A stretch of DNA of 64,000 bases from NCBI GenBank assembly GCA_013215295.1, contig JABSOZ010000014.1:62001-126000 (forward strand). The letters run 5' to 3'. The position numbers and the translations under genes are program-made. Under the pieces are notes generated by a model. That model saw only the letters and a program-made list of their open reading frames with translations. It made no database searches and was not told the DNA's origin. Below are positions 18,031-58,225 of the stretch, piece by piece. Each line of letters begins with the position of its first letter. The first letter of the stretch is position 1. The stretch is from Colwellia sp. GTDB taxonomy: Bacteria; Pseudomonadota; Gammaproteobacteria; Enterobacterales; Alteromonadaceae.

Positions 18031-20862
18031 CTATCGTTTTTTGATAAAAATACTGGTCGTTAAAGCGGGAATAATAAAATGGTTATTATTGCTGGTACTT
18101 TGTTTAACAATAGTATCGACACCCTTTAGCTGAATAGGATGTAATTGATATTGTTCAGCATTTTTATAGTTTATTGTTTTAGTGGTTGTGCTGGTATTAA
18201 AAATAACCATGATGCCGGAGATCTCAGTATCTAATTGATGAGATTGTGCTGAATCATCAATACTCATTACAATTAAGCCAATTTGTTGCTCTTTGCCTGT
18301 ATTGTGAAACTTCACACGTTTTATTATTTCATCGCTGTTAGTCAGTCGAAATAGCGGTGTACTCATTCGTAAACTAATAAATTCTTTAAAGACTTCAGCA
18401 CTAAATTCAATATCACTTGGGCTGACAATATCTCTGCCTTCATTTTTTGCGAGTAGCTGCTTGATAAGTGGCCAGTTTGCTTGGTCTTTATCTGCTGGCG
18501 GTAAACCGACATTATAGTTATTGGTTTGTTTAGTGAAATCGACTTTATTAAACCAGTCACCGTAGTCATAACTGTCACGTAAGAATGATTTTGAACGTAA
18601 AAACTCTGAACCCATGTGTAAGAATGGAATGCCTTGTGCAAAAATTGGAAAGGCGAGTGACTGCAAGTGAAGTCGAACGCGATCTTTGGTTGATGTACTG
18701 TAAGGTAAGCGATATTGGTTGTTGTCCCACAGTGTTTGATTATCATGCTTTGACACATAATTAATGGTGTCGGCAGGATCTAAAGCATAACCTGTTGGTT
18801 GATCGCCATAAGGAATATCTTTACCGGTTACGTTTTCATCGTTAGCATTTCTAAGTGGAAATTCGGCTAGGTTCCCAGCTAAACCGATACGTAATTGATC
18901 TGCTGAAAGCAGGTATTCCATCCTTGATTTTACCTGGTTTACTAGCTCATTAGGTAATGTGCCTAAACCACTGCCGATACCTTGGCTTTTACGAATGTCA
19001 TTGCCGATGGCGCTAAAAGCACCACCGCGCACCGCGTCGCGTAACCTGTCCGTAAAAGTACCAATTTGTGTTCCGCCAAGTTCTAACTGACTCGCTTGCG
19101 TAAAGCGCTGGTTATTCGCCACCTCGCCGAAATTCCAGCCTTCACCGTAAAAATAGGTGTCGTTATCCACCGTTTGAACCGCTTTTCTGGCTTTTAGCAT
19201 GGATGATTTAGGTTGATGCGCCATAAGGTCAAAGCGGAAACCGTCAATTTTGTAGTCTCTTGCCCAAACGATCAATGAATCGGTCATTAATTTTTCCATC
19301 ATGACGTTTTCTGTAGCGGTATTATCACAGCAGGTTGATTGCGCTATTTTTCCAGTGATAGGGTCAAGGCGGTGATAATAGTTAGGCACAATTTTATCAA
19401 GCACAGCTGTTGGCTCTAAACCAGCTTGATGAGTATGGTTATAGACCACGTCCATTATTACGCGAAAGCCTAAGTTATGAATGCTTTGCACCATTTTTCG
19501 AAACTCTATAATACGTGCCGAGCCTTCAGGTTCCTGTGCATAACTGCCTTCTGGCACCGTGTAATGGAAAGGATCATAGCCCCAATTATAATTATCAATT
19601 TCTCTAATTGAACTGACTATCGCTTGGCGTTGCTCTGTTTCTGCCGGTAGCGACTTTACATATTCGCGTATCGTTATTTGGTGATTGCTTTGACCACAAA
19701 GCTGATGTTCTGCCACGAGTTGGCAAAGTTTACTGATAGGATCATTAAGATCAATCACTTGACTGTCGTTTTCGTTAGCTGTGCCAATATCAAAAGTGGG
19801 CAGCAGATGAATATTGTTAATACCTGCTTTTTGTAAGTCAATTAAGTGTTTAATGCCAGCGCTATTTTTTTCTGTGAAAGCGGCATATTTACCACGCACC
19901 TTAGGAGATGAGAGTTGAGGATCGTGAGCACTAAAGTCACGAATGTGCGTTTCGTAGAAAATATTGTCTTCAGGATTTTCTACTAACACATCCTGTTGTG
20001 ACTCCCATGCTTTAGGTTTGTTTTTTGAATCATTTAAGTCGATAACATGTGAATACTCACTATTTGTCGAAAGGCTCAATGAGTATGGGTCTGTCGTTGT
20101 TAACGTTTCAACTTTATCACTAGCGGGGTGATATGTTTTTATTTGATACTGGTAATACACATCTTGCTGTGTGTTGGCGATTTCACCTGACCAAATACCG
20201 GTATTGGTGTCTTCTTTGAGGGGGAAAATATGTGTCGATTTTTTGTCTTTATTAAACGCTAATAAGGTTATCTGTTTTGCTGTAGGTGACCAGAGTTTAA
20301 ATTGGATATAACTTTCATTGTCATTTTTAACGAACGTTGCACCTAAATCGTTAACTTCATCAGCATCGTTATTTTGCGATGTATACAATACATCTAATAA
20401 TTGCGCTGTTTGTACTTGCGCCATGTGTGTTTGAATTAAATGATCAGATTTAATATTTTCACTTGATGAAGTTACGTAAATTTTACTTTTAAGCCATTTT
20501 TTAATTTTGTCATCAGACAGCTTTACTTCGAATAGGTTGAATGATGCTAAATGTTTGGGGATACGTTCATTATCCATTTTACCGGAAAAAGGAATAAGAG
20601 GTGACTCTTCAATAACTTCACCATTGTTGCTGATGAGTGTATGTTTTTGATGAAGATTACTTTTAGGCAATAAGATGAGTGTCGGGGTTATCCAATGTGC
20701 AGAAAAGTCATGGGTGATCGTATGCTTATCGCTGGCGACCGTAACTAGTTTTTCACTGGCATGAACAGACTCGATATTTTGTTCATGCTGACATGAGCTA
20801 ATGCATGTCGTTGTGATCATGATTAACCCTAGTTTTCGAAAAGAAGGTAAAAAAATAAGCAT
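18031..20862 (-). CDS. GH13 pullulanase-type alpha-1,6-glucosidase, lipoprotein
   Basis: This 943-residue protein has a lipoprotein signal with lipobox ISSC near residue 24, so it is probably anchored at the outer membrane. An N-terminal beta-sandwich/CBM48-like region (about residues 160-270, VKNDNESYIQFKLWSPTAKQ) precedes the GH13 barrel. The barrel motifs are visible: DVVYNH near 469, nucleophile Asp in DGFRFDLMAHQ near 539, acid/base Glu in YFYGEGW near 571, and KHDNQTLWD near 704. A C-terminal DUF3372-like domain follows (FKEFISLRMSTPLFRLTN). It would debranch alpha-1,6 links in pullulan, glycogen or starch. It has its own upstream LacI-type box and is a shorter paralogue of the next gene. 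Confidence 0.94.
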   Translation of the reverse strand: MLIFLPSFRKLGLIMITTTCISSCQHEQNIESVHASEKLVTVASDKHTITHDFSAHWITPTLILLPKSNLHQKHTLISNNGEVIEESPLIPFSGKMDNERIPKHLASFNLFEVKLSDDKIKKWLKSKIYVTSSSENIKSDHLIQTHMAQVQTAQLLDVLYTSQNNDADEVNDLGATFVKNDNESYIQFKLWSPTAKQITLLAFNKDKKSTHIFPLKEDTNTGIWSGEIANTQQDVYYQYQIKTYHPASDKVETLTTTDPYSLSLSTNSEYSHVIDLNDSKNKPKAWESQQDVLVENPEDNIFYETHIRDFSAHDPQLSSPKVRGKYAAFTEKNSAGIKHLIDLQKAGINNIHLLPTFDIGTANENDSQVIDLNDPISKLCQLVAEHQLCGQSNHQITIREYVKSLPAETEQRQAIVSSIREIDNYNWGYDPFHYTVPEGSYAQEPEGSARIIEFRKMVQSIHNLGFRVIMDVVYNHTHQAGLEPTAVLDKIVPNYYHRLDPITGKIAQSTCCDNTATENVMMEKLMTDSLIVWARDYKIDGFRFDLMAHQPKSSMLKARKAVQTVDNDTYFYGEGWNFGEVANNQRFTQASQLELGGTQIGTFTDRLRDAVRGGAFSAIGNDIRKSQGIGSGLGTLPNELVNQVKSRMEYLLSADQLRIGLAGNLAEFPLRNANDENVTGKDIPYGDQPTGYALDPADTINYVSKHDNQTLWDNNQYRLPYSTSTKDRVRLHLQSLAFPIFAQGIPFLHMGSEFLRSKSFLRDSYDYGDWFNKVDFTKQTNNYNVGLPPADKDQANWPLIKQLLAKNEGRDIVSPSDIEFSAEVFKEFISLRMSTPLFRLTNSDEIIKRVKFHNTGKEQQIGLIVMSIDDSAQSHQLDTEISGIMVIFNTSTTTKTINYKNAEQYQLHPIQLKGVDTIVKQSTSNNNHFIIPALTTSIFIKKR

Positions 20863-21102: not shown

Positions 21103-24100
21103 TTAAGGCTGACATTCCTGTATAGCTAAACTTCCGACATTGAAGCCTTTAGCTGGGTTTGCAGTGTCTAGTGTTAACAAGAAACTATATGAACCAGCCT
21201 CAAGGACAGTATTGTTGTTATCCGTTCCAGCGTCGCTATAAGCGATAGGGTAGTTAATACCTAACGCTAAGTTTGCGCCATCAATATCGTTACTGTCATT
21301 TTCTTGCACCCACAGTTGTGTTGACCAGCTGCCATCGTCTGAAGCAAGTTTGAATTGCATTGCGCCATCAAAATCTGCAACAGCTTGGTATTGATTATTC
21401 CCTTTGTAGTGCATACGGAATTCTTCAGTTGCATCCCAACCTGAGTGATCACCACGAATAAAGAGTTCACCACCACCAGCGATATCAAAAGGTATTGCGT
21501 CACTTGAATCAGCTAAAGCTGAACAATTTATTGAGGTGTTTTTGGTTATTATCGTTAAGCTTGGTGTCGCTCCACTCGCGTCTAAGCTGAAATTGTAGTT
21601 ACCTGCAGCAGTAACAACTATTTCAATATTGCCACTATCATCAGCGACTGCAATAGAATCATCAGTGATGGTTATATCACTAAAACCAAGATTTACATCA
21701 GCCCAATCACTTGAAGCAATCTTAAAGGTGTGTGTCCCTGCAGCTAAAGTAAAATCTAAGATATATTCACCGTTACCTTCATAAATGAACATATCTGTTG
21801 TCGTTAGACCGTCGTCACCCCAATTGTTCATTGAGCCACGAAGGTAAACACTTGTTTCGCCATAAGGAGCTGGGTCTGGTGCATTTAATGTCGCATCGGC
21901 AGCTAAACCTGCGCCTTGCGCCATACCTTGTGGTTTTACAAAAATTGCTGTTGTTAACGCAGGCACTGTAAAAGTACCCTGGTCAGTGTCTGCAACAAAT
22001 GTTGCCATTTGCACGCTAGTATCAGCAGAAGTTTGTTGAACACTGTGCAGTTCAAAGCCGCTTGCCGTTAAAACATGATGAGATTGTCCAGCAGTACTAG
22101 CGTTTATAACAACGACAATGGCATCAACATTTTCATCAAGGTCAGTTAAGCCAGTACCGTCATCAATGCTCATCACGATTAAGCCTTGAGTTTGTGAACT
22201 GCCGGTATTATGAAAACCTAAGCGTGCAATAATATCAGCTTGTGTGGTTAGTCTAAATAATGGGCTTGAAGCTCGAATACTTAAAAACTCTTTGAAAATA
22301 TTTGATGAAAATTCGATGTCACTTGCTTGCGCGGCGGTTTCACTGTTGTTGATGAGTGCGCCCATTGCGGTCCATTTGCTTTCGTTGTCTTGGGCAAGAG
22401 GTAAACCGACATTCCAGTTATTAGTGGTTTTAGTGAAATCAACTTTATTGAACCAATCGCCTGCATCATAGGTATTTCTGTCCATTGATTTTGAACGAAG
22501 TAAATCGCCACCAAATTGAAAGAATGGAATACCTTGGCTGATTAATGGCAATGTACCGGCAATATTTTGTATACGTACACGATCATCGATGGTGACATCT
22601 GTTTCAATACCATATTGCAGTTGATCCCATAAGGTTTCATTATCGTGCTTAGAGACATAATTGATAATGTCAGCAGGGTCTTTTCCGTAAGAAGGTTTAC
22701 TGAAAGTACTAGCTGATTTGATGTTGTCGCTTTTATCTTGTAACTGATAATCGTTTTGCGTACCCGCTAAACCTAAACGAATAATGTCTTGGTCATTTAA
22801 ACTACCAGAGCTTTTAAACAGAGATGCACTGCGAATAATATCGCGGGGTCTATCGTTAAAAGTACCAATTTGAGTGCCCGCCATATTATTTTGATCCGCT
22901 TGGTCATAACCTTTATCAGCACGTGTCCAACCTTCACCATAGAAGTAACTGTCACTGTCTAGCGCTTGAACAGCGGTACGTGCTGCTAAAATAGACGCTT
23001 TTGAATTGTTACTCATAATGTCAAAACGGAAACCGTCAAACTTATAGGCTTGAGACCAAGTTACTAATGAGTCTTGCATGAGCTTGTCCATCATTTCATG
23101 TTCGGGAGCCGTGTCTTGACAGCAAGTTGCTGTTTCAACATTACCTGAGGTGAGATCGCGGCGATGGTAGTAACCTGGAACGACTTTATCAAGTACTGAG
23201 TTTCCCCATAAACCTGATGAGCTTGTGTGATTGTACACAACATCTAATATTACACGTAAACCCATCATGTGAAGTGCTTGGTTCATTGCACGCATTTCTG
23301 TTATACGCGCTACGCCGTCAGGGTTAGAAGAATAACTGCCGTCTGGGGTAGTGAAATGTTCTGGATCATAACCCCAGTTGAAGCTGTCTAAACCTCTTAA
23401 AGATTGTGCTAAGGCTTGGGCATCAGTTGAAGTAGGATCGTAACTCGCAAATACATCAGCTAATATATCACTGCCACTTTCAACACCACATACTGGTGCG
23501 TCACTTTTCTTGGCACATAATTCATCAACGGTATTATTGAGGTTGATACGATTAGCGTTATCTTCATCAATACTGGCGATGTCGTTTGCAGGTAACATTT
23601 GAAAATGGGTTAAACCTGCATCAGCAAGTGATTGTAGATGCATAACAGGAGTAGAAGCTTCTTCGGTGAACGCTAAGTAGTTACCACGGTTTGCTTCGCT
23701 GGTACTTGCATCTAAAACACTAAAGTCACGAATATGTCCTTCATAAATAACACTATCTTCAGCGTTGACGACTTCAGGGATAGCGTGGTCGTCCCAACCC
23801 GTTGGTTTTAAATCGCTATCCGCTAAATTGACAAACTGTGAATAGTCACCGTTTGTTGATAAAGAAATTGAATAGGGGTCAGTGGCTTCAAGGGTTTCAA
23901 TACGTTGATTTTGTTGATGGTAAACAGTTAACTCATAACGGTAAAATAAACGGTCTACTGAGCTTGGCGCTGTAAATGACCAAATGCCTGTCTCGTCATT
24001 AATCGTCATTTCATGGCTCGATGCTAATGCTTTACTCGCTGTGTAAACCTTAAGCGTTACTTGTTGAGCTGTTGGCGCCCAAACGTTAGCGCTTATCTCA

Positions 24101-53495: not shown

Positions 53496-53554
53496 TACAT
53501 TTTGTTACAAACGATGGATCTTGTTACGTCATTAATATTGAGTCTCCATATAAT
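53496..53554 (+). promoter_or_regulatory. 35-bp regulatory element with -10 box upstream of MipA (copy 1)
   Basis: The element at 53496-53530 has two TTGTTAC repeats (53502-53508 and 53521-53527, 19 bp apart) flanking ACGATGGATC. TATAAT at 53549-53554 lies 28 bp after the second repeat and lacks a good -35, which fits an activator-dependent promoter. A near-identical copy lies upstream of the serine hydrolase gene at 57068. Confidence 0.8.
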
Positions 53555-53589
53555 GACTATATACTTAACCATCAGGAATCGTAAAACAC

Positions 53590-54426
53590 ATGACTTCATC
53601 ACAAAACATACCTAAATCAATCATTGGCGGCTTGCTGGCGCTGTTCGTTTCTACTTCTGTTTTTTCTGCAGATATTACCCATGCTTTACGTAATAATACA
53701 CAAGATAAGGCAACCACCGAAAACTACTTTGAGCTAGGTCTTGGGGCAGGCATTGGTAGAGCTCCGAGTTTAACTGACGACGATGCCACGTGGGCTGCAC
53801 CTTATTGGGTTATTAATGGCAGTTATAATTGGAACGGTTTGTTTGTTGAAAAATATGGAGAAAGTAGCGACCCTATTTTACTGGGCTACAACGCGTATGA
53901 GAGTGAGGATTGGTCGTTAGATATAATTATTGGGCCAAATTTTAGCGGCCTGCATTTTGATGATAAATTTGAAGACCTTGATGACAGAAATTCAAGTACC
54001 ATGTTTGGTGGTCGCCTAACAGGTTACTTAGGAGATAACGTCGTACAGTTTTCAGTTAAACATGATATCAGTGGTAACAGTCATGGTACTTCAGCATCGG
54101 CTTTAGTGGGACGGAATTGGCAGGTTAGAAATTGGAATTTTCATAGCTTAATCGGGTTGCAGTTTTTTGATAGTCGTATTAATGATTATTATCACGGAAT
54201 TAACGATGCAGAAGCATCACGTACAGAGTTTACGCGATACAATCCGGGGTCAAACTTTAATGCTACTGCAGAGGTTGGGGTTACTTATCCAGTAACTGAA
54301 AACTGGGTCTTTCGCAGCACAGCACGATTTAGCACCGTATCAGATGCTGACATGGACAGTCCAATATTTGAAACTACAAGTTCAACGAGAACATCATTAC
54401 GTACGAGCATCACCTACGTTTTTTAA
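53590..54426 (+). CDS. MipA/OmpV family outer-membrane protein
   Basis: This 278-residue protein has a signal peptide (IIGGLLALFVSTSVFSA). A beta-barrel follows, with alternating hydrophobic strands such as YFELGLGAGIGRAPS, WSLDIIIGPNFSG and TMFGGRLTGYLG, and an aromatic C-terminus (SLRTSITYVF). MipA in E. coli links MltA and PBP1B in murein synthesis. It is the first gene of a set with DUF3019 (18 bp later), a response regulator and a sensor kinase, with the 35-bp element upstream. MipA paired with a two-component system and DUF3019 recurs in related genera. Confidence 0.93.
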   Translation: MTSSQNIPKSIIGGLLALFVSTSVFSADITHALRNNTQDKATTENYFELGLGAGIGRAPSLTDDDATWAAPYWVINGSYNWNGLFVEKYGESSDPILLGYNAYESEDWSLDIIIGPNFSGLHFDDKFEDLDDRNSSTMFGGRLTGYLGDNVVQFSVKHDISGNSHGTSASALVGRNWQVRNWNFHSLIGLQFFDSRINDYYHGINDAEASRTEFTRYNPGSNFNATAEVGVTYPVTENWVFRSTARFSTVSDADMDSPIFETTSSTRTSLRTSITYVF

Positions 54427-54444
54427 TAAAGTAAGGAGTAAATT

Positions 54445-54900
54445 ATGCTTACTTTATTGCGCATAAAAAAAATAAAAATAAGTTTATTGGTAGGGTATCT
54501 GATAACAACGTTGTGTTTAATAATGGCGAGTAATGTATATGCTTCATCGGCTGATACTACCAATACTACCAATACTAACGATGTTGCACATCTTGAGGTA
54601 TCACCAGAACAATGTATTGCCTTACGTAAGGGGCAAAAATGCTATCTAGAAGTAACCTTTAGCTGGCGACACCCACAAGTACGAGATTATTGTTTGGTAA
54701 ATATAACAACAAATAAAACAATTAAATGTTGGGATCGTCAAACTAAAGGTGAGTTCAATTTTGACTTTCAATCGACGTTAAGTCATGACTTTGCTCTACG
54801 TGTTAAAGGGGCAACTGTAGATTTAGCACATGCACGCATTCCCGTCGCTTGGGTATATAAATCGTCTAAGCGCGCAAAATCAACTTGGAGATTGTTTTGA
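54445..54900 (+). CDS. DUF3019 family exported protein
   Basis: This 151-residue protein has an N-terminal signal or anchor (SLLVGYLITTLCLIMASNVYA). The core HLEVSPEQCIALRKGQKCYL and WRHPQVRDYCLVNITTNKTI, with three or four Cys, matches DUF3019, a small periplasmic family of unknown role that usually sits between MipA and a two-component system. Its TGA overlaps the next gene's TTG. Confidence 0.9.
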   Translation: MLTLLRIKKIKISLLVGYLITTLCLIMASNVYASSADTTNTTNTNDVAHLEVSPEQCIALRKGQKCYLEVTFSWRHPQVRDYCLVNITTNKTIKCWDRQTKGEFNFDFQSTLSHDFALRVKGATVDLAHARIPVAWVYKSSKRAKSTWRLF

Positions 54901-55631
54901 AAAAAACAGTTTTGAAAGAAACCATTCAATGTAAGCATATTATGTTGGTAGAAGACGATATGTCCTTAGCTGAATGGTTTTGTGATTATCTAACCGAGCA
55001 TGGTTATTTGGTGACCATTTCAAATCGTGGTGACACTGCCATTGAGTTGATTGAATCAGATCAGCCAGACTTGGTGATATTAGACATTATGTTACCTGTA
55101 AAAGATGGCTTTGAAGTCTGTCAGGCAATTCGTCCTTTTTATCATGGGCCAATACTCATGATGACGGCACGCGATCATGAAACCGATGAAGTACTTGGGT
55201 TAGAACTTGGCGCCGACGACTATGTTGTGAAACCCGTTAAGCCGAGAGTATTGTTATCACGCATCAAAGCGCTTTTTCGTCGTGTATCTCTGCCAAAAGC
55301 TGAAACTGAAGAGAATCTAAATAGATTAACTTTTGGCAAATTATGTATCGATGCAAATTCTAGAACAACAACGCTTTTAGGTGATAAAGTTGCGATTTCG
55401 TCGAACGAGTTTGATGTGCTTTGGCAACTCGCTGAAGCGGCTGATAACGTTGTTAGTCGAAAAGATTTGGTGGTTCAACGCAGAGGCATTGAATACGATG
55501 GCTTTGATCGGTCAATCGATATTCTTATTTCTAGGATACGCAAAAAATTAGGCGATGATGCAAGTAATCCATATCGAATTAAAACGGTATGGGGCAAAGG
55601 GTATTTATTTGTTAAAGACGCTTGGGAGTAA
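54897..55631 (+). CDS. OmpR/PhoB-family response regulator
   Basis: I chose TTG at 54897. GGAG lies 6 bases upstream and the start overlaps the DUF3019 stop (TTGA), implying coupled translation; a TTG at 54885 is also in frame. The product has 244 residues. The receiver has IMLVEDDMSLAEWF, the phospho-Asp in VILDIMLPVKDG, and Lys in DDYVVKPVKPR. The C-terminal winged helix has SSNEFDVLWQLAEAADNVVS and RIKTVWGKGYLFV. It is paired with the kinase 3 bp downstream. It probably binds the shared 35-bp element. Confidence 0.94.
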   Translation: MKKTVLKETIQCKHIMLVEDDMSLAEWFCDYLTEHGYLVTISNRGDTAIELIESDQPDLVILDIMLPVKDGFEVCQAIRPFYHGPILMMTARDHETDEVLGLELGADDYVVKPVKPRVLLSRIKALFRRVSLPKAETEENLNRLTFGKLCIDANSRTTTLLGDKVAISSNEFDVLWQLAEAADNVVSRKDLVVQRRGIEYDGFDRSIDILISRIRKKLGDDASNPYRIKTVWGKGYLFVKDAWE

Positions 55632-55634
55632 GAG

Positions 55635-56921
55635 ATGCAAAAATTAACCTTATCTCTACTTGTAGTGATCTTAATTGCCGTGATCGGAATAGGTGGGGTT
55701 TTAGATAACTTATTTAGCCAATATAAAACCCAACCTATTAATAACTCTGATGAGTTGTCGCCGTATCGCCAATTGGGAAATTCTCTTGCTGCTTCATTGG
55801 ATAAACAACTAAACCCCGAAAAACTTATTGAAAACTGGCCGTATCAAGCTGATCTTTCTGTTGATTTAGCTCCGTTAGACCGCTTTGTTTTACCCGATTC
55901 ATTACAAGAATCGTTTTATGCAGGAGAGCCTTTAACATTAGAAACTGAGCTCAGAATATCAATGCATTTTATTTTACCTTCACAGCAAAAAGTACTGGTT
56001 TTCAATATTTCCCCTATGGATAAGAAAAACGAAAATAGCTCATTACAACTGCTTTTAACGGGGGTGTTTTATATTAGCATTATAGTTGTCGTACTTATTT
56101 GGCTTTATCCATTGATAAAGCAATTGAGAAGTTTAAGGCTTACAACTAAAGCATTTGGTGAGGGAAAATTTCAACAGCGCATTCAATCGAAATCAATTTC
56201 TTATATCGCAGATATTGAAAATGAATTTAACCGTATGGCCCAGCGAATTGAAACTTTGATCAGTGATAATAGACTACTTAGTGATGCTGTTTCACATGAT
56301 CTTCGCACACCATTAGCGAGATTACGTTTTGGCATTGAAGCTTTGCAAGAAACAGAGAACCCTCAATTAAGAGAAAAATACCAAGCACATCTTTGTCGTG
56401 ATATTGATGAAATGGAGCGATTGGTCTCGGTACTGCTTAATTATGCGCGAATAGAACAATCAATGATTGCGGTGGAAAAGCAAGATGTCGATCTGAACGA
56501 AATTATCAGTCACTGTATTCAGTCGTTTACTCATAATACAAATGAAAACGAAAAAGTCATTCATTGGCATGCTCAAGGCGTTTCTATAATCAAAGGTGAC
56601 ATTAATTACCTCAACATGCTGATCAATAATTTACTCGGGAATGCCCAGCAATATGCCAGTAATGAGATTAAATTAAGTGTTATAAAAAAGGATGCTCAGT
56701 TATCTTTCATTATTAGCGATGATGGACCTGGTATTGCGAAAGAAAAACGCAGCGAATTAATGAAACCCTTTATGCGGGGTGAACAAGCACATGAAAGTCC
56801 GGGTTATGGCATGGGCTTAGCAATAGTCGCTAGAATTGCACAATTACACGATGCGACATTTCTTATAAATGACTCTGTTGAATTAGGTGGTGCCGAATTT
56901 CGCGTGACCTTTAACCAATAA
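55635..56921 (+). CDS. Sensor histidine kinase (RstB/EnvZ-like layout)
   Basis: This 428-residue protein has membrane spans at about residues 4-20 (LSLLVVILIAVIGIGGVL) and 140-160 (LLLTGVFYISIIVVVLIWLY) bracketing a periplasmic sensor of about 115 residues. A HAMP-like segment (LRLTTKAFGEGKFQQRI) and HisKA with His in VSHDLRTPLARLRFG follow. The ATPase has NLLGNAQQYA, SDDGPGIAKEKR and GYGMGLAIVARIAQLH. It starts 3 bp after the response regulator. The input is unknown; the MipA partner suggests a cell-envelope signal. Confidence 0.94.
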   Translation: MQKLTLSLLVVILIAVIGIGGVLDNLFSQYKTQPINNSDELSPYRQLGNSLAASLDKQLNPEKLIENWPYQADLSVDLAPLDRFVLPDSLQESFYAGEPLTLETELRISMHFILPSQQKVLVFNISPMDKKNENSSLQLLLTGVFYISIIVVVLIWLYPLIKQLRSLRLTTKAFGEGKFQQRIQSKSISYIADIENEFNRMAQRIETLISDNRLLSDAVSHDLRTPLARLRFGIEALQETENPQLREKYQAHLCRDIDEMERLVSVLLNYARIEQSMIAVEKQDVDLNEIISHCIQSFTHNTNENEKVIHWHAQGVSIIKGDINYLNMLINNLLGNAQQYASNEIKLSVIKKDAQLSFIISDDGPGIAKEKRSELMKPFMRGEQAHESPGYGMGLAIVARIAQLHDATFLINDSVELGGAEFRVTFNQ

Positions 56922-56977
56922 CGTTTGGTGAGTAATTAAGATCGGTTAAGCGGATAAAATTCAACATGAGAATTTCG

Positions 56978-57037
56978 TACATTTTGTTACAGACGATGGA
57001 TCTTGTTACGTCTAATATTCCAACTTTTACTTATAGT
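56978..57037 (+). promoter_or_regulatory. 35-bp regulatory element with -10 box upstream of serine hydrolase (copy 2)
   Basis: The element at 56978-57012 matches copy 1 at 34 of 35 bases, including both TTGTTAC repeats and the ACGATGGATC core. A TATAGT at 57032-57037 is 29 bp after the second repeat, close to the 28 bp seen in copy 1. This spacing supports a shared activator. Confidence 0.8.
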
Positions 57038-57067: not shown

Positions 57068-58225
57068 ATGTACCCGTTAAATCAGCTAAAGCCGAAACTT
57101 TTATGTAGTTCAATTATTTTAATGTTAGTTGCCTGTGGCAGTGATTCTGAAGTGAATAAAACGCCCAACATTGAAATACCTCCAGCGGTCACCATCGATT
57201 ACCAGAAAATGATAGATGAAACAGTCTCTGATACGATCCCAGGTGTGATACTTTTAGTAGAAACGCCAGAGCAGCGATTTATCGGCAGTGCGGGATTAGC
57301 CGATATAGAAAGCCAAGAAGCAATGCAGACTTACCATATAATGCCAAATGGCAGTGCGGGCAAGAAACTGACGGCTTTATTAGTTGCGATGTTAGAAGAA
57401 GATGGCATGCTGAATATTGATAATACCCTCGATACTTGGCTACCTGAAACGTTGTTGATTCAAATTGCTCACAGTGACCAAATGACCTTGCGACAGTTAT
57501 TAAATCACACTTCAGGTGTTTACGATTATCTCGATGATAGTGATTTTAATGACGCGGTATTGTTAGATCCTTCCTCTTTGAAAACGGATCACTACGCTCT
57601 CCAATTTGCATTGAATAAACCGGCGTCTTTTGAACCGGGCCAAGGGTGGGACTACTCCAATACCGGCTATTTATTAGCGGGCCTTATTATGGATGAAGTC
57701 TTAGGTGAGCATCATTCAAGTGAAATACGCAACAGAATATTAGATCCATTAGCCATGAATTCTAGCCACTATGGTGGAGTAGAAAAAGAACACGGTGCTA
57801 TTATTTCTGGTTATTATAAATATGAGGATGGTGAAGTTCTCAATACCAAACCTTTCTATGAAAATATTGGTGTTGCAGACGCACCGTTAGTTGCTAGTAT
57901 CGAAGATATGGCTCTGCTCCTTAAAACAATTATAAATGACGACATATTTGTTAGCGACCATGCTAAAGGCGCGTTATTTGGTGAAGATAATCTGCAACCA
58001 ATGGGAGACGGAAGTTATTACGGGCAGGGGATAATAAAAGGAACAATCAATGGCACGTCCTTTTATCATCATGGTGGTGAGGAAAGTGGCTATTCAACCA
58101 CTAACATATATATTCCACAGACTGATACCAGTATTACTGCATTTTTTAATTGCGGAAACTTTGATATGTGTGAATTTGAAACCAATGCATTGATTGAAAA
58201 AGTATTGCTTAATGAACTAAAATAA
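57068..58225 (+). CDS. Serine hydrolase (beta-lactamase class C/PBP-like) lipoprotein
   Basis: This 385-residue protein has a lipoprotein signal ending in LMLVACGSDS. The catalytic motifs of the class C beta-lactamase/D,D-peptidase/esterase fold are present: Ser-x-x-Lys in NGSAGKKLTALL, Tyr-x-Asn in WDYSNTGYLLAG, and His-x-Gly in HHGGEESGYST. It is anchored in the envelope and may be a peptidase, esterase or weak beta-lactamase. It lies just downstream of the two-component system but has its own copy of the 35-bp element, so it is probably part of the same regulon. Confidence 0.9.
   Translation: MYPLNQLKPKLLCSSIILMLVACGSDSEVNKTPNIEIPPAVTIDYQKMIDETVSDTIPGVILLVETPEQRFIGSAGLADIESQEAMQTYHIMPNGSAGKKLTALLVAMLEEDGMLNIDNTLDTWLPETLLIQIAHSDQMTLRQLLNHTSGVYDYLDDSDFNDAVLLDPSSLKTDHYALQFALNKPASFEPGQGWDYSNTGYLLAGLIMDEVLGEHHSSEIRNRILDPLAMNSSHYGGVEKEHGAIISGYYKYEDGEVLNTKPFYENIGVADAPLVASIEDMALLLKTIINDDIFVSDHAKGALFGEDNLQPMGDGSYYGQGIIKGTINGTSFYHHGGEESGYSTTNIYIPQTDTSITAFFNCGNFDMCEFETNALIEKVLLNELK

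Follow-up and report, generated by a model that had tools for sequence, protein, structure and literature searches.

Why should two non-coding stretches 3.5 kb apart be almost identical when one precedes a gene for an outer-membrane barrel, the other precedes a gene for a serine hydrolase, and a two-component system is encoded between them? The question is posed by a 64,000-nucleotide stretch of DNA from Colwellia sp. (contig JABSOZ010000014.1, positions 62,001 to 126,000), hereafter the window. In it, a 35-bp element precedes mipA, the first gene of a mipA–DUF3019–response regulator–histidine kinase operon, and recurs before the hydrolase gene. A first-pass annotation, made from the letters alone, had proposed that the regulator controls both its own operon and the hydrolase through these sites, and sequence comparison supports that proposal: the element is confined to regions upstream of MipA and hydrolase genes, contains an RstA box and has an RstA-like regulator as its neighbour. 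The sites, their conservation, their context and the kinship of the regulator were established by computation. We consider it highly probable that both elements are operators of the RstA/CarR-like regulator encoded between them, which would activate its own operon together with the hydrolase gene.

Two elements that open with an RstA box

The two copies, at 53496–53530 and 56978–57012 on the forward strand, are identical at 34 of 35 positions, as annotated, and identity stops abruptly on both flanks. Among direct 35-mer pairs sharing an 11-base seed, this is the best pair in the window, the next independent pair matching at 31 of 35. Each copy carries the two TTGTTAC repeats described in the annotation, whose starts lie 19 bp apart; the window has two instances of the pattern TTGTTAC-N(8–16)-TTGTTAC where 0.02 would be expected, and none of 100 shuffles reaches two. 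The repeats are real, but they form only part of the unit, which adds a TACA ten bases before the TACA of the first TTACA. Elsewhere in the window, direct repeats at 18499–19258 and 22399–23050 (28–29 of 35 matches, about 3.8–3.9 kb apart) suggest two related genes.

The opening bases of each element, TACATTTTGTTACA, fit the E. coli RstA box TACATNTNGTTACA exactly, a box known to contain tandem TACA (PMC4117788). Exact RstA boxes occur twice in the 5.77-Mb genome, both at these elements, and a fuller element pattern with three mismatches allowed still finds just two copies (reversed control, 2). The array in the window places TACA at +0 and +10 and TACG(TC) at +29, the putative operator before mipA reading TACA-N6-TACA-N15-TACGTC. 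Several paralogous modules have TACA at +0 and +10 and TACG at +30, and two of them (L085 and L096) also have TACA at +20.

Downstream of each array lies a putative −10 hexamer, TATAAT at 53549–53554 and TATAGT at 57032–57037, both on the forward strand. Counted from the start of the second TTGTTAC they lie 28 and 29 bp away, in agreement with the annotation, and they follow the end of TACGTC by 18 and 19 bp. With a −10-like hexamer defined as a match of at least 4 of 6 bases at gaps of 14–23, searched without a shuffled control, the best candidate falls at a gap of 18–19 after TACGTC in 17 of 20 MipA-upstream sequences; of 10 hydrolase-upstream sequences, 8 have TATAGT at gap 19. This spacing would fit activation at a promoter with a weak −35. 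A simple promoter scan gave no excess (21 found, shuffle mean 20.0) and listed neither proposed promoter with TACGTC as the −35.

Distribution of the element among relatives

DUF3019 is present in 148 of 196 genomes of the family. We fetched 80 regions, comprising the window's own and same-genus places and then the best by E-value among the matches listed, and read 82 modules from them. MipA, DUF3019, response regulator and histidine kinase are all found in 78 modules, in that order in every one. Several loci are the same contigs twice (for example L117/L177, L111/L183 and L216/window) and others are alike or near-identical (L143/L182, L180/L181 and L179/L195), so that sequence counts exceed independent lineages. 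tblastn also overlooks some MipA genes: the second module of L084 was scored without MipA, yet Pfam shows one.

Where the identity of the response regulator is at least 63% (15 modules, window included), the element precedes MipA in 14, and the fifteenth, L125, has a tandem second MipA with a box in front of it. The 18 regulators listed for TTGTTAC-type elements, L125 included, make up a single clade (support 0.935) that contains no other sequence in a tree of 98 regulators. Across 395 genomes of the family, the pattern TACANNTTGTTACA-N11-TTGTTACG occurs at 26 places in 20 genomes (reversed control, 0): 21 before MipA, 5 before the hydrolase and none elsewhere.

A scan of named genomes yielded 42 DUF3019 loci, including Colwellia, Thalassotalea, Glaciecola, Pseudoalteromonas, Shewanella, Ferrimonas, Vibrio halioticoli, V. 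ezurae and Gilvimarinus. MipA, regulator and kinase flank DUF3019 in 41 of them, L210 showing MipA and DUF3019 only. Absence of the element upstream of these genes in relatives had been named beforehand as a result that would refute the proposal, and the comparison did not give that result. Among the 20 named loci with a regulator identity of at least 63%, the element stands before MipA in all 19 that can be judged (the sequence of L173 starts too near MipA), and a second copy is found in all 6 with a hydrolase after the kinase and in 0 of the other 14. Mean identity per column is 0.81–0.98 over the element and 0.42–0.60 in the 40 bases upstream. When the regions upstream of MipA at 21 loci of Shewanella, Ferrimonas, Vibrio, Gilvimarinus and Granulosicoccaceae were compared by MAFFT alignment alone, with no search for motifs, no shared element was seen, and we therefore claim operator conservation only for the window's family sample and the named close relatives.

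Some further features of these loci are recorded separately. L091 (G101) and L109 (G048), assigned to different genera, have the same match scores and the same element sequence and may represent a misbinned contig. The Shewanella/Vibrio modules L191–L193, L196, L198–L205, L207–L209 and L211 show, on the opposite strand and up to about 2.5 kb after the kinase, another MipA-like match of weak similarity; in Ferrimonas (L197 and L206) such a match precedes the module.

The array also tracks the hydrolase. Homologues of the hydrolase (E ≤ 1e-40) are found in 50 of the 395 family genomes, and 30 hydrolase loci were fetched, their link to a module being assigned by the author from tblastn hits within about 1.5 kb. 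With an array scored wherever 11 or more of its 12 half-site bases matched within 220 bp upstream, it is present at all 14 hydrolases beside module genes and at 2 of the 16 others (L217 and L245), a difference (Fisher p 8e-7) computed without regard to shared ancestry and with several loci duplicates. Three of the 16 (L219, L221 and L244) have a weak regulator or kinase match nearby (31–38%) and no array; with these three placed in the linked group, the figures become 14 of 17 and 2 of 13. At L074, L075, L085 and L096 the hydrolase sits between DUF3019 and the regulator, still with its own array. Upstream of the hydrolases of L218 and L219, which adjoin no recognised module, TACA-type repeats occur at an 11-bp rather than a 10-bp pitch.

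The neighbouring regulator and competing explanations

The regulator gene (54885–55631, forward strand; start codon uncertain, homology from about 54909) encodes an RstA/CarR-like member of the OmpR family, 44% identical to E. coli RstA. RstA is its top NCBIfam model, at 258.9 bits under a cut-off of 330, and in a tree rooted on PhoB the module regulators group with E. coli RstA, apart from seven other E. coli regulators, at a node with a support of just 0.296. The recognition helix is nearly identical to that of RstA. In K. pneumoniae RstA the base-specifying residues are R200, S201, V204 and R208, contacts of the other protomer being numbered one lower (PMC4117788); the window regulator has R201, S202, I205 and R209 at the aligned places, three of the four identical and one conservative. 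Across the modules, array type follows this helix: of the 51 modules with Ser/Thr at RstA position 201, 28 have TACA-N6-TACA-N15/16-TACG no more than 450 bp from MipA, as do 0 of 26 with Arg/Trp (Fisher p 4e-7), and TACA-N5-TAACA is seen in 8 of 25 modules with Arg at that position and in 0 of 52 others (Fisher p 5e-5), both tests again ignoring shared ancestry and including duplicate loci.

Several points weigh against control by this regulator, beginning with the shared ancestry and duplicates behind all three Fisher tests. The strict array pattern is missing within 450 bp of MipA in 23 of the 51 Ser/Thr-class modules, and in the clade to which the window belongs the half-site at +20 is weak. 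Genome-wide, TACA-N6-TACA-N15/16-TACG has 6 matches, 5 at MipA/DUF3019 modules and 1 elsewhere, against 4 in the reversed control, and RstA boxes with at most one mismatch carry no signal, because 33 were found against 54 in the reversed control. The −10 and ribosome-site stretches downstream of the element are conserved too, up to 0.87. Published work adds further cautions: at V. cholerae tcpP, the CarR site TAATGAGAATTACT differs widely from the RstA box (PMC9178039); K. pneumoniae homologues of E. coli RstA targets are described as lacking the classic box (PMC4117788); a P. damselae rstB mutant has unchanged polymyxin sensitivity (PMC5385354); and in V. mimicus polymyxin raises ompV but not significantly carRS, its authors doubting a functional link (PMC13413815).

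Could a different regulator act through the element on MipA and the hydrolase, with the adjacent two-component system a mere bystander? The missing genome-wide enrichment of near-exact RstA boxes speaks for such an arrangement. Yet the element contains an RstA box and its neighbour is RstA-like, the array tracks hydrolase genes that adjoin a module, and its type follows the recognition-helix residue of the neighbouring regulator; we consider a bystander unlikely. Far less probable still is a recent local promoter duplication, or a small dispersed repeat with no conserved regulatory meaning, as might be read from 34 of 35 identical positions at a distance of 3.5 kb. Each copy is conserved in its own right across genera, the variant start TACACTTTG is shared by 8 of 10 hydrolase-upstream copies and the TATAGT hexamer by 8 of 10, the genome holds two copies only even with three mismatches, and diverged arrays occupy the same places in paralogous modules. 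The family-wide placement and the named relatives likewise contradict a dispersed repeat or recent duplication.

The closeness of the element to both genes would also suit a role in RNA, as a leader or attenuator. There is no Rfam match at the gathering threshold, however, and folding is no better than in shuffles (z 0.03 and 0.59), on which results we reject this explanation as scarcely credible; the element moreover lies upstream of the putative −10 and so would not be transcribed from that promoter.

For control by the RstA/CarR-like regulator, the following sequence of events can be envisaged, with binding and the direction of regulation inferred from sequence. An envelope signal would stimulate the RstB-like kinase (55635–56921, forward strand), which was assigned by profile match and alignment to RstB: RstB is its best NCBIfam model, under the cut-off of that model, and the two proteins share 31% identity. 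The kinase would phosphorylate the regulator, which may then bind head-to-tail along the direct TACA-type half-sites of both arrays. The TACG(TC) half-site would take the place of a −35 hexamer, 18–19 bp before the −10, and the bound regulator would activate the mipA–DUF3019–regulator–kinase operon, in positive autoregulation, and the hydrolase gene. The regulon served through this site probably consists of just these two promoters. The barrel, the small secreted four-Cys protein and the lipoprotein of the PBP/beta-lactamase family would most likely detect or buffer an envelope-active agent, for example a cationic peptide. The envelope or antimicrobial nature of the signal, suggested by analogy with CarRS–OmpV, ParRS–MipBA and BesRS, is much less secure than the rest.

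The sensor cassette and known systems

Profile matches bear out the annotated gene order of MipA, DUF3019, response regulator, kinase and serine hydrolase. The mipA gene (53590–54426, forward strand) encodes a MipA/OmpV-family outer-membrane barrel (PF06629, 129.7 bits, cut-off 24.2); its link to murein synthesis comes from the family name only. It is followed by the DUF3019 gene (54445–54900, forward strand; PF11456, 92.3 bits, cut-off 25), whose product is predicted to be secreted, from reading of its N-terminus, and has four invariant cysteines and a C-terminal WRLF. Across 81 sequences (the window's and L063–L142) the four cysteines are invariant, Phe is the last residue in 80 and WR[LIMV]F ends 75. 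This C-terminus resembles the terminal aromatic signal of outer-membrane proteins, which is unexplained at this protein size. The DUF3019 profile had no PDB match up to E = 10, and we found no paper naming DUF3019 in the open-licence literature.

The hydrolase (57068–58225, forward strand) is a 385-residue protein of the S12/PF00144 family (150.3 bits, spanning residues 55–377), with a lipobox LVAC, assigned by reading, and the motifs SAGK, YSN and HHGG. Its best PDB matches are named D-alanyl-D-alanine carboxypeptidase and alkaline D-peptidase; identity as a class C beta-lactamase was rejected, at 45.8 bits against an NCBIfam cut-off of 415. Of 36 hydrolase sequences, the window being counted twice, 34 have SxxK as well as YxN, the exceptions being L134 and L176 (YSS). 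The hydrolase may serve in peptidoglycan or peptide cleavage or in sensing. The module-linked homologue of L134 (G013:C1:6425500-6436000) has lost all three catalytic motifs (VAGQ, FTD and YSNG), in part as reported for P. aeruginosa MipB. At L076 (5735–6888) the homologue is in two pieces overlapping by a few bases and may be broken or misassembled.

The genome of the window (G000) holds five DUF3019 places, at C6, C23 (two) and C3 (two), and seven MipA genes, with differing upstream sequences, and these represent paralogous sensor cassettes. As a tentative and rather doubtful extension, the RstB-like kinase might be served by a single envelope co-sensor made up of MipA, DUF3019 and the hydrolase, in which DUF3019 would be the invariable connection from barrel to kinase. 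The cassette would have been duplicated repeatedly into insulated copies, five in this genome, each operator type matched to the recognition helix of its regulator; some copies would have recruited a serine-peptidase-family lipoprotein, whose catalytic residues, judged by motifs, were lost in at least one. Paralogous cassettes of this kind offer a natural series for how duplicated two-component systems are insulated, and the idea of a barrel-based envelope co-sensor becomes testable in harmless marine bacteria.

Among the closest known systems are the RstA/RstB systems of E. coli and K. pneumoniae, which share with the window the RstA box TACATNTNGTTACA, the tandem TACA and a nearly identical recognition helix (PMC4117788). 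Unlike the window locus, E. coli rstAB is accompanied by neither mipA nor DUF3019 within the 6 kb examined. An RstA/RstB-type pair linked to a MipA/OmpV barrel is found in Vibrio: in V. cholerae, compared here by description only, carRS lies upstream of ompV in one operon (CarRS/VprAB–OmpV; PMC9178039, PMC10433830, PMC13413815), CarSR senses a human defensin and vc1318 (ompV) is among the CarR targets found by chromatin immunoprecipitation (PMC9178039). V. vulnificus CarR autoregulates, gives footprints of GACA-N6-TACA and confers polymyxin resistance (PMC10433830). The V. mimicus ompV gene is also raised by other antibiotics, which does not fit the envelope-signal idea in a simple way (PMC13413815). 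The gene order of the Vibrio CarRS–OmpV system, carRS–ompV–virK, differs from that of the window, reported CarR targets include LPS-modification genes, and the available parts of these reports mention neither DUF3019 nor a hydrolase lipoprotein.

In P. aeruginosa, both a MipA barrel and a beta-lactamase-fold lipoprotein are under the control of the two-component system ParRS; MipA binds polymyxins, and MipA and MipB are proposed co-sensors of ParS (PMC10936184). The window hydrolase may approach MipB as a predicted lipoprotein of PF00144 that shares a putative operator with MipA, its lipobox being assigned by reading and its fold only through its sequence family. In MipB, SxxK is absent and two further barrels stand at the C-terminus, whereas the window protein has SAGK, YSN and HHGG within its 385 residues. 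The parRS genes are not polymyxin-induced, and the part of that report available mentions no DUF3019 (PMC10936184). BesRS of B. thailandensis, RstAB-like (45% to RstA), answers envelope disturbance; its regulon includes beta-lactamase and MipA/OmpV genes, it may be autoregulated, and its cis element has been likened to the RstA box (PMC9426598). It differs in its wide regulon, its class A beta-lactamase and its TGCG/TGCA repeats (PMC9426598).

Judged by title and the start of the abstract, no open-licence paper was found on this operator pair or on the MipA–DUF3019–regulator–kinase cassette. RstA/CarR systems with OmpV are already known; what is new is that DUF3019 is a constant partner, that the regulon apparently comprises two promoters and that the catalytic motifs of a MipB-like hydrolase are intact. 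Across marine Gammaproteobacteria, the comparison places DUF3019 with a defined regulator, operator and set of partners. Besides ParRS–MipBA and BesRS, it supplies a further case in which a two-component system is linked with a MipA barrel and a protein of the beta-lactamase family.

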